Positions 35,185 through 38,237 of a stretch of 64,000 nucleotides of DNA are shown here, piece by piece. The stretch covers positions 682,001 through 746,000 of the forward strand of contig NZ_QDDR01000001.1 in the NCBI RefSeq assembly GCF_003075525.1, given 5' to 3'. The stretch is from Pararhodobacter aggregans (lineage in GTDB: Bacteria > Pseudomonadota > Alphaproteobacteria > Rhodobacterales > Rhodobacteraceae). The stretch's first letter is position 1, and every line of letters begins with the position of its first letter. The notes beneath the pieces were generated by a model. The model was not told the origin of the DNA. It saw only the letters and a program-made list of their open reading frames with translations, and did no database searches. Position numbers and translations under genes: made by a program.

Positions 35185-35226
35185 AACGAAAAAACGCGGC
35201 TGCCCGGGAGGAGGTGGGCAGCCGCG
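35185..35226 (-). terminator. Rho-independent terminator ending the CCTCCTCCC array
   Basis: On the minus strand CGCGGCTGCCC and its perfect 11-bp complement enclose the loop ACCTCCTCCC and are followed by TTTTTT (35194-35189). It doubles as the last repeat of the array and should end the DUF1127-sRNA transcript. Confidence 0.85.
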
Positions 35227-35545
35227 TCATCATCGGCGTTCGGGGGAGGACCGTCCGCCGCCTGTTTGGGGCGCGGCGATCCTGGGAGGAGGTAGGATCG
35301 CCGCGCCACGAACGGATACCCAGGGAGGAGGAGGGGCATCCGTAACTTTTGGGGTCGGCCCGCCAGGCGGGGAGCCCCGGAATTCGGGGCGCGGTTCCCC
35401 AGGGAGGAGGAGGGGGAACCGCGCCGGAGTGCCTTCGGCCCAGGGAGGAGGAGGGGCCTCAGCAACAGGTCGGAACCTTACCGCAGGGAGGAGGAAGCGG
35501 CGGTTCCTTGCACGATCGGCCCAGGGAGGAGGAGGGGCCGTCGTT
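35195..35545 (-). ncRNA. CcsR-like sRNA array (CCTCCTCCC-loop hairpins)
   Basis: Seven hairpins, each with CCTCCTCCC in the loop on the minus strand, occupy the region directly downstream of the DUF1127 gene. Perfect motifs (plus-strand coordinates): 35524-35532, 35486-35494, 35443-35451, 35402-35410, 35323-35331, 35284-35292 and 35206-35214. An eighth, degenerate copy is at about 35234-35260. Stems differ in sequence (perfect 11, 13 and 14 bp in three of them), but the loop is invariant. This is the organisation of the stress-induced CcsR1-4 RNAs of R. sphaeroides, processed from the transcript of the DUF1127 gene ccaF1 (RSP_6037). CCUCCUCCC can pair with Shine-Dalgarno regions of target mRNAs. 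Confidence 0.85.
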
Positions 35546-35576
35546 TCGGTCACAGGCCCCGCGGGGCCCGGAATTC

Positions 35577-35798
35577 TTAAGCGTCGCGGCCGTAGGCGGC
35601 CTCATAGGCCAGGCGCGAGATCATCGAGCGGCTGATGCCGAGGTCAGCCAGTTCGCGGCTGGTCAGCGCATTCAGCTCGTTGTAGGTCCGGACATAGACA
35701 CGCGAGCGCGCCCAGGCCGTCCGCAGCGACGAGAAGGCTTCGGCGATCTGGCCGAACACGCCGGTCGCGCGGGTCGTTTGTGCAGAGGCGTAAGCCAT
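35577..35798 (-). CDS. DUF1127 small RNA-binding protein (CcaF1-like)
   Basis: 73 residues, with a C-terminal DUF1127 domain (RTYNELNALTSRELADLGIS). R. sphaeroides CcaF1 (71 aa, RSP_6037) has the same size and the same downstream sRNA array; it binds RNA and affects maturation of those sRNAs. ATG 35798 has a modest AAAGG upstream. The frame is open further 5', but that extension is not family-like. It should be induced by heat and oxidative stress through RpoHI/RpoHII, one of which (rpoH2) is also encoded in this window. Confidence 0.9.
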   Translation of the reverse strand: MAYASAQTTRATGVFGQIAEAFSSLRTAWARSRVYVRTYNELNALTSRELADLGISRSMISRLAYEAAYGRDA

Positions 35799-35868: not shown

Positions 35869-35898
35869 AAAGATGGCCCAAATGCTGCGCCTGCACAA
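35869..35898 (-). promoter_or_regulatory. Candidate RpoH-type promoter of the DUF1127-sRNA operon
   Basis: On the minus strand TTGTGC (35898-35893) and CCATCTTT (35876-35869) are separated by 16 bases, a fair match to alphaproteobacterial RpoH promoters (TTG... and a C-rich/AT -10). It lies about 70 bp before the DUF1127 start. Confidence 0.3.
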
Positions 35899-36129
35899 TC
35901 CCTCCTCACGGCAATGCTGCTATGCAGCGACAGCATGGCGACGTAGGGGAAAGCTGCCTCAGGGGTGTATCTTGGGGACAAAGGTCGCATTCGGCGGGGG
36001 CACGGGCGGCCTGAGCGGCCCTTCCCTGCGGCAGAATGTCCCTTTCGGCGCCCGGGTCGCGGGGGCTTGTCACCGGCCGATTCCCGGACAGGTTAGGGCA
36101 AACCGATTCTGAAGGAACAGGAGTATCCC

Positions 36130-37218: not shown

Positions 37219-37245
37219 CGCGGGATCAGGCTGGGATTTTCAGGG

Positions 37246-37279
37246 AGCCCGGGCGGAAACGCCCGGGCTTTTGGTTTTT
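37246..37279 (+). terminator. Rho-independent terminator of mrp
   Basis: AGCCCGGGCG (37246-37255) and CGCCCGGGCT (37260-37269) form a perfect 10-bp stem with a GAAA tetraloop, followed by TTTGGTTTTT. Confidence 0.93.
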
Positions 37280-37688
37280 CGACCCTCTGATACGGGGCCT
37301 CCGCCGCCCGGATCCGTGAAATCCCAGCGGTGTTTCGGGGGAATGGCCTGGAAAGGCGGGGGAGGGGCGCGAAAGCGTGGCGCCGCGAACACGGCGGCTG
37401 CGACGCATCAGGCGTGATGGCGCGGCAGCGGGTGGGGTCCGTGGGGAGGACCCGCGGGTCTCAAGGTCCTGGCGGCGGCTGATCTGGGGGCCGGGTATCC
37501 GCAAGGGCGGGGGCGCAGGCCCGGCGAGGAGGCGGCGCGCGGTCAGGCCCGGGATCGGGCTGGGAATTCCAGGGATCCGCTCGGGACGGCCGGGGTTTTC
37601 CCTGGCGCTGACCCGTTCCGTCCCATCGCAGCCCCCTCCGGGAAACCGCCGAACCCACGAAATCCCAGAATGAGGCCCGGAGTCCGGC

Positions 37689-37736
37689 TGGGACAGGCTG
37701 GGAAATGGCCTGGGACTGGATGGGATCGCTCTGGGC
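37689..37736 (+). promoter_or_regulatory. MraZ-box array (five TGGGN repeats)
   Basis: TGGGA at 37689, 37699, 37711 and 37721, and TGGGC at 37732. Spacers are 5, 7, 5 and 6 bases, so the boxes fall on one face of the helix. MraZ binds TGGGN direct repeats with 5-base spacers upstream of the division cluster in E. coli. The array lies about 540 bp before the mraZ start, just upstream of an AT-rich promoter-like segment. Confidence 0.7.
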
Positions 37737-37783
37737 CAACCTCCGCCGAATCGGAATCACACCCCGGTGAGGGGGATATTAAT

Positions 37784-37792
37784 TGTGGATAA
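37784..37792 (-). promoter_or_regulatory. DnaA box
   Basis: TTATCCACA on the minus strand, a perfect consensus DnaA box within the only AT-rich stretch of the mraZ upstream region (37776-37815). A near-copy with one extra base (TGTGGGATAA) follows at 37794. It may link division-gene transcription to DnaA. Confidence 0.6.
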
Positions 37793-37821
37793 GTGTGGGA
37801 TAATTAATCTTAACGATTGCG

Positions 37822-37839
37822 TGTGTCCCTATGGACACA
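37822..37839. promoter_or_regulatory. Perfect inverted repeat TGTGTCC-CTAT-GGACACA
   Basis: Seven-base arms around a four-base centre, 30 bp downstream of the DnaA box. A candidate operator or the 5' hairpin of a transcript starting in the AT-rich segment. Confidence 0.4.
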
Positions 37840-38043
37840 AATCCGCGCCCCGCCGCCGATTCTTCCCCTGACCCTGAAGGGGGCTGTTAGCGCTTTATCT
37901 GGTGGGGCGGGTAGGGGGTCTGGCCGATATCTAGTGTTGCGCCAGGCCGGGCCTCAACGACTGGTAGCGTCATCCCCTGCGCGACCTGCGCATTCCCTCG
38001 AATTCCCGTTGATATCCGTGAAGTCCCATGGCATCAAAGGACC

Positions 38044-38237
38044 ATGGAAGGACACAAAAAAGATCCTCCGATACCAAGGCAGTAACTACAGGCAACTTCA
38101 CATCAAGATCTGGAGCGTAGCGAGCAGACGTCTTTCATCCCCCCCCCTAGTAAAGACGGTTACGTGACCAGGCGACCCCGCAGTGGGACGAGGGCGGCGG
38201 CTCGGGTATGGCAGCACCCGAGCCGCCGTTTCAATTT
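38044..38237 (+). ncRNA. UpsM-like sRNA / extended mraZ 5' leader
   Basis: In R. sphaeroides the dcw cluster has a 5' leader of roughly 270 nt, most of which accumulates as the abundant sRNA UpsM because of an imperfect terminator ahead of mraZ. Here the segment before mraZ is less GC-rich than its surroundings and ends in a strong hairpin plus T-rich tail. A possible promoter (TTGATA at 38009 with a weak CATCAA at 38032) would give a ~190-nt RNA. The 5' end is a guess. Confidence 0.55.

Follow-up and report, generated by a model that had tools for sequence, protein, structure and literature searches.

A CcsR-like array of fixed-loop hairpins behind a ccaF1-like DUF1127 gene in Pararhodobacter aggregans, with a predicted Shine–Dalgarno-based regulon

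Published accounts place the CcsR RNAs of Rhodobacter sphaeroides within the 3′ UTR of ccaF1, describe their processing by RNase E and assign the ccaF1-CcsR locus an RpoHI/RpoHII promoter (PMC10253847). The flhR mRNA is a target of CcsR1–4, which also affect the pyruvate dehydrogenase complex (PMC8307010), and RS0680a (CcsR) comprises two motif stem-loops (PMC3927594). That a fixed loop sits on diverging stems is already on record (PMC3927594, PMC10746234). The related NfeR1 uses anti-Shine–Dalgarno (aSD) loops to silence ntrBC, and ABC transporter genes make up the majority of its candidate targets (PMC10746234).

A comparable locus occupies positions 35189–35798 on the minus strand of the window, the 64-kb stretch of P. 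aggregans DNA analyzed here, in the order 73-aa DUF1127 gene, hairpin array and terminator. We determined its anatomy, conservation, synteny, copy number and Shine–Dalgarno (SD) matching computationally; in the direction of transcription, its features are as follows.

35916..35928, minus strand: dyad GCTGCATAGCAGC upstream of the promoter, candidate activator site (upstream alignment)
35871..35898, minus strand: predicted RpoH-like promoter TTGTGC-N16-CCATCT (aligned upstream regions; –35 and –10 elements assigned in this analysis)
35577..35798, minus strand: DUF1127 (CcaF1-like) gene, 73 aa (PF06568, E 4.7e-12)
35550..35572, minus strand: GC-rich hairpin without motif, directly 3′ of the stop codon (fold)
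35512..35544, minus strand: hairpin 1, loop CCTCCTCCC at 35524–35532 (motif search, stem folding)
35472..35507, minus strand: hairpin 2, motif at 35486–35494 (motif search, stem folding)
35430..35464, minus strand: hairpin 3, motif at 35443–35451 (motif search, stem folding, Rfam CcsR1)
35388..35425, minus strand: hairpin 4, motif at 35402–35410 (motif search, stem folding, Rfam CcsR1)
35351..35380, minus strand: motif-less hairpin between units 2 and 3 (fold)
35312..35343, minus strand: hairpin 5, motif at 35323–35331 (motif search, stem folding, Rfam CcsR1)
35270..35307, minus strand: hairpin 6, motif at 35284–35292 (motif search, stem folding, Rfam CcsR1)
35234..35260, minus strand: degenerate hairpin, loop TCCTCCC at 35244–35250 (sequence, fold)
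35189..35228, minus strand: last motif hairpin, motif at 35206–35214, plus T6 (sequence, stem folding, fold)

Exact copies of CCTCCTCCC number seven, all on the minus strand between 35206 and 35532 and each the loop of its own stem; the motif is absent elsewhere in the 64 kb on both strands, and shuffled sequences contained 1.58 copies on average, with at least seven in 0 of 100 shuffles. An eighth, degenerate copy (GGTCCTCCCCC) retains TCCTCCC on a weak stem, and its hairpin is identical in the closest species (L109). Since the last motif hairpin (35193–35228) runs into T6 at 35189–35194, it is likely the Rho-independent terminator. The 387-nt stretch from 35190 to 35576 folds at –202.8 kcal/mol (z –7.9), a value equalled by 0 of 100 shuffles. 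Pfam matching, motif search and folding confirmed everything the initial annotation had described here, i.e. the DUF1127 gene, seven fixed-loop hairpins, the degenerate eighth and the terminator.

The first motif lies 44 nt from the stop codon of the DUF1127 gene, and successive motifs are spaced by 38–43 nt, apart from two gaps of 78–79 nt; the one from unit 2 to unit 3, at 79 nt, falls inside the inter-unit step range of other arrays. As part of the explanation that we consider probable, the array is best parsed as four CcsR-like two-hairpin units, with the final hairpin as the terminator. Pairs of exact motifs (gap 12–42 nt) yielded four matches in the 5.08-Mb genome, all at this locus, against one match for a reversed control pattern. 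A DNA repeat or mobile element was ruled out, as motif pairs occur nowhere else in the genome and the stems differ.

The DUF1127 protein is 48% identical to that of locus L050, a relative taken up below. Alignment of the region upstream of its gene with those of 33 other loci (34 regions) revealed TTGTGC in 34 of 34 and TTGTGC-N16-CCATNT in 24 (the window and 23 of the 33 others), CCATNT being absent from the expected place in 10. This conserved block fits the published RpoHI/RpoHII promoter, the sigma factor assignment being predicted from sequence. The dyad further upstream is present as exact GCTGCATRGCAGC in 13 of the 34 regions and in a looser form in 33. Within the window, positions 35871–35928 hold a dyad near GCTGCATRGCAGC and then TTGTGCANNTGCAGCA, both retained ahead of ccaF1 in most aligned relatives; the dyad is reminiscent of the LsrB site of NfeR1, TGCA-N6-GCAT (PMC10746234). 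Autoregulation via GAGGAGGG (35900–35907), a loop complement, was rejected: the element precedes the proposed –35 box, and its presence in only two of the 34 regions (the window and its closest relative, L109) counts against such a role.

Genes for a PcrA/UvrD-type helicase, Mrp, MraZ, RsmH and a penicillin-binding protein neighbor the locus. PcrA, Mrp, MraZ and RsmH likewise surround the DUF1127 gene and array of Cereibacter johrii (L115) and Luteovulum (Cereibacter) azotoformans (L117), with extra DNA separating array and PcrA in L115. Among 80 named loci retrieved with the DUF1127 query, several of them from one genome (L115/L116, L134/L181, L179/L184, L193/L194) and five with fewer than two motifs, Mrp was found in 75 and MraZ in 67 within the flank examined, and three of three congeners checked directly (L102, L109, L114) have PcrA and Mrp. 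The DUF1127 protein of P. zhoushanensis (L174) equals that of the congener G136 (L114), and the motif spacing of the two agrees except for one base in the last interval, in keeping with Pararhodobacter as the probable genus of the window. At three loci (L160, L163, L179), a CcaF1-like DUF1127 gene is present but its strand lacks an exact CCTCCTCCC in the flank examined, a possible loss of the array. Ahead of mraZ, the window contains ~1 kb without a clear gene (37219–38207), in which Rfam gave no match at gathering cut-off; at this place the UpsM sRNA of R. sphaeroides arises from the dcw 5′ UTR (PMC8625941).

The adjacent hairpins bear CCUCCUCCC loops on variable stems (seven exact, one degenerate), a short DUF1127 gene immediately precedes them in the same orientation, and the chromosomal neighborhood is the one seen in Cereibacter (PcrA, Mrp, MraZ and RsmH in L115 and L117). 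By these features the array, at the syntenic ccaF1 locus (CIN1 locus), is a further member of the cuckoo/CcsR family. Protein family, motif hairpins, upstream block, terminator and synteny all support the corresponding proposal that the DUF1127 gene is ccaF1-like and the array behind it CcsR-like. An Rfam scan at gathering cut-off gave no match at the array: the best score for CcsR1 (RF02791) was 32.6 bits against a cut-off of 65.3, the sub-cut-off matches covering hairpins 3 and 4 (35383–35466) and hairpins 5 and 6 (35268–35346), and three of the four CcsR1-like units of C. johrii are likewise below 65.3 bits (39.4–46.6 bits). The ar14 model (RF02344, cut-off 58.8 bits) reached 51.5 bits at 35190–35311 and 54.7 bits in the genome search.

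The initial annotation had further called the array enlarged, with nearly twice the number of R. sphaeroides. This was wrong, as hairpins had been compared with RNAs. RS0680a has two motif hairpins, and four CcsR RNAs therefore amount to eight. The Rfam CcsR1 model also comprises two motif hairpins, and C. johrii and C. azotoformans each show four CcsR1 matches with eight motifs, the same total as the seven plus one of the window. The RSs0680a probe (PMC3688512) is, as read by eye, complementary to the first unit of L115 and of L050. The latter locus (G051:C4:690400-694000) contains seven CcsR1-like units, of which the final five are almost identical; published work counts four CcsR RNAs. Its genome, G051, which we tentatively take to be R. 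sphaeroides 2.4.1, holds fourteen motifs and seven CcsR1 matches.

A family draw of 120 genomes, including that of the window, was scored for exact motif pairs, which are present in 84; the reversed control pattern gave at most three per genome across this table. More pairs than the four of the window were found in 37 genomes, four in 12 (the window included), one to three in 35 and none in 36, so that 37 of 120 exceed the window and 71 have fewer or none. The comparison of copy number across Rhodobacteraceae thus shows no enlargement, and the seven or eight motifs of the window are mid-range for the family. Motif counts in 60 fetched family arrays plus the window ranged from 2 to 16 with a median of 8, which holds for the fetched set, as the 60 were drawn non-randomly from the 83 other genomes with a match (the remaining 23 comprise 15 with one or two pairs and others with four to fifteen); a nearby contig end makes some counts (e.g. 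L105) lower bounds. Within the genus, a motif-pair match was obtained in 16 of 18 genomes including that of the window, and the window and 15 congeners carry 4–11 motifs (median 6). This spread, together with a weak correlation between motif count and genome size (Spearman 0.34, n = 60; rounded sizes, no kinship correction), would suit a copy number raised to tune aSD capacity. We nevertheless regard that explanation as highly improbable, and its claim of an enlarged array is refuted by the counts in Cereibacter, G051 and the 120 genomes; moreover, no recent duplication was seen inside the array of the window (best flank identity 0.63).

Elsewhere, array growth mostly follows the two-hairpin module. 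The motif count is even in 57 of 75 named loci with at least two motifs (related species and hence not independent), and neighboring steps belong to unlike length classes in 644 of 904 cases, compared to 412 expected under independence. Because near-identical hairpins lie two or four hairpins apart in 39 of the 46 arrays that have such a pair (three apart in 5, one in 2), the two-hairpin unit is what mostly duplicates, and array size shifts within the genus mostly in steps of this unit. Two loci, L060 and L059, reach 15 and 16 motifs, roughly twice the size of the window's array, with short steps of 37–54 nt in the former and of 40–52 nt plus one of 86 nt in the latter.

The statement that the stems diverge while the loop stays fixed proved true. 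Across 147 arrays holding two or more exact motifs, after removal of letter-identical arrays, 1196 hairpins folded with their own arms at –20.1 kcal/mol on average, compared to –11.1 kcal/mol when arms were swapped with another hairpin of the same array and –10.6 kcal/mol with one of another array. Each stem is therefore private and the loop fixed. Within the genus stems vary little, the structure of the window pairing 93.2% of cells across eight species versus 30–47% when slid, and covariation is weak (three pairs changed on both sides, a number reached by 34 of 500 shuffles).

Hairpins of this kind could also serve mainly to stabilize the 3′ end of the DUF1127 mRNA and to terminate transcription, the loop being retained for another reason, e.g. 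binding by the DUF1127 protein. Indeed, a run of at least four T within 30 nt follows the last motif hairpin in 84 of 147 arrays but only 33 of 1051 internal motifs, and CcaF1, a DUF1127 protein, binds RNA in R. sphaeroides (PMC10253847, PMC12501420). Yet termination calls for no invariant nonamer loop and no series of up to 16 hairpins, and the loop is an SD complement, through which a related RNA silences mRNA (PMC10746234), making this alternative quite unlikely.

We instead favor a reading in which the ccaF1-CcsR (cuckoo RNA, CIN1) locus probably gives rise to an RpoH-type stress transcript that is cut into aSD RNAs blocking GGGAGGA-type SDs. From an RpoH-type stress promoter, a single transcript would comprise the DUF1127 mRNA and a 3′ UTR of eight aSD hairpins; RNase E, aided by the DUF1127 protein, would cut this 3′ UTR into short RNAs as published for R. 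sphaeroides, and their CCUCCUCCC loops would pair with GGGAGGA-type SDs and block ribosome loading. TRAP solute-binding proteins, other uptake components and catabolic enzymes are the predicted favored targets, and stress would in this way throttle carbon uptake. Transcription, processing, pairing in the cell and repression as the direction of effect are what we infer for the window.

A genome-wide search for the loop complement GGGAGGAG before ATG returned 46 rows representing 42 distinct sites, compared to 7 for reversed-pattern controls. Reading frames at 37 of the 42 were scanned against Pfam, five short ones being left out (L228, L231, L257, L259, L270), and three dubious frames had no Pfam match. 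The 34 plausible genes comprise 15 transport components (nine DctP, one DctQ, one TAXI-like NMT1_3, two ABC-type binding proteins, one permease and one ATPase), 17 members of other families and two without a Pfam match; the 17 are largely catabolic by family name and include a RuBisCO large chain, a SoxA-like cytochrome and a single regulator of the AraC type.

The genome contains 41 genes for DctP, the TRAP solute-binding protein. GGGAGGAG as SD leads a DctP gene at 9 of 42 sites versus 0 of 55 for RAAGGAGG (Fisher p 3e-4), and none of the 21 GAAAGGAG SD sites does so. A single rule, applied equally to loop and 16S complement, was used to read the SDs of all DctP genes except C7:72322. Perfect loop complement of 7 nt or more was present in 28 of these 40, compared to 2 of 40 window genes (Fisher p 1e-9), and GGGAGGA itself in 22 of the 40 DctP genes. 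The enrichment of loop complements on DctP SDs in this genome is firm.

Its dependence on the array is less secure. Two genomes chosen for lack of an exact motif pair, in which a single or degenerate array is possible, also have DctP SDs with at least 7 nt of loop complement (7 of 21 read, of 39 genes, in G101; 2 of 10 read, of 27, in G014), and the 14-motif genome G051 has them at only 4 of 9, not different from the genome of the window (p 0.24). Given these counts, DctP genes may bear GGGAG-type SDs out of lineage habit and not as targets of the array.

The array loop resembles the 16S anti-SD, and perfect 8-nt sites before ATG occur in 51 and 46 rows versus 5 and 7 for reversed patterns. 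Both points would suit array RNAs that soak up any strong SD unspecifically and cause a general drop in translation under stress with no chosen regulon. We consider this unlikely: canonical RAAGGAGG (55 rows) leads no DctP gene, whereas GGGAGGAG leads mainly uptake and catabolism genes, and the named CcsR targets are specific (PMC8307010).

Blockage of GGGAGGA-type SDs by processed array RNAs, the reading we prefer, leads to a tentative proposal, to which we give somewhat less than an even chance. Here the loop would act as an SD code: genes would join a stress-silenced regulon by using GGGAGGA instead of a canonical SD, carbon uptake would be shut down as a class by the one array, and the degenerate UCCUCCC hairpin would still work. 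Carriers of GGGAGGA in this genome include about half of the TRAP solute-binding protein genes read, some ABC uptake parts, a RuBisCO large chain and many catabolic enzymes. We found no TRAP target of such RNAs reported, although the main CcsR and cuckoo-family papers may contain one. The array is an ordinary one, and it is the predicted regulon that is of interest: an SD variant of uptake genes that matches an sRNA loop better than the 16S tail would supply a simple rule for who is regulated. As we found few published targets for this widespread RNA family, a prediction of its regulon could matter there.

Among known systems, AbcR1/AbcR2 have, to our knowledge, no DUF1127 array. They resemble the window in possessing aSD-type motifs, similar but not identical to the one studied here, and in targeting mostly transport and metabolic mRNAs (PMC10746234). 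The alpha-r14/NfeR1 RNAs of rhizobia (SmelA075, SmelA099) come closer, with several CCUCCUCCC-loop hairpins on diverging stems and, in the Rfam ar14 model, a terminal hairpin that also bears the motif. Unlike the array of the window, they are independent sRNA genes of three or four hairpins, and NfeR1 is driven by an RpoD-type promoter rather than located in a DUF1127 3′ UTR (PMC10746234). Compared to CcsR1–4 of Rhodobacter (Cereibacter) sphaeroides, the stems of the window are unrelated in sequence, its steps of 38–43 nt with two 78–79-nt gaps differ from the alternating short and long steps of Cereibacter, and its terminator hairpin bears the motif, which that of C. johrii, read by eye, does not. 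What the locus shares with CcsR1–4 is the DUF1127 gene, an array in its 3′ UTR, two-hairpin units and CCUCCUCCC loops, along with a predicted RpoH-like promoter and PcrA, Mrp and MraZ as neighbors, as in C. johrii and C. azotoformans.
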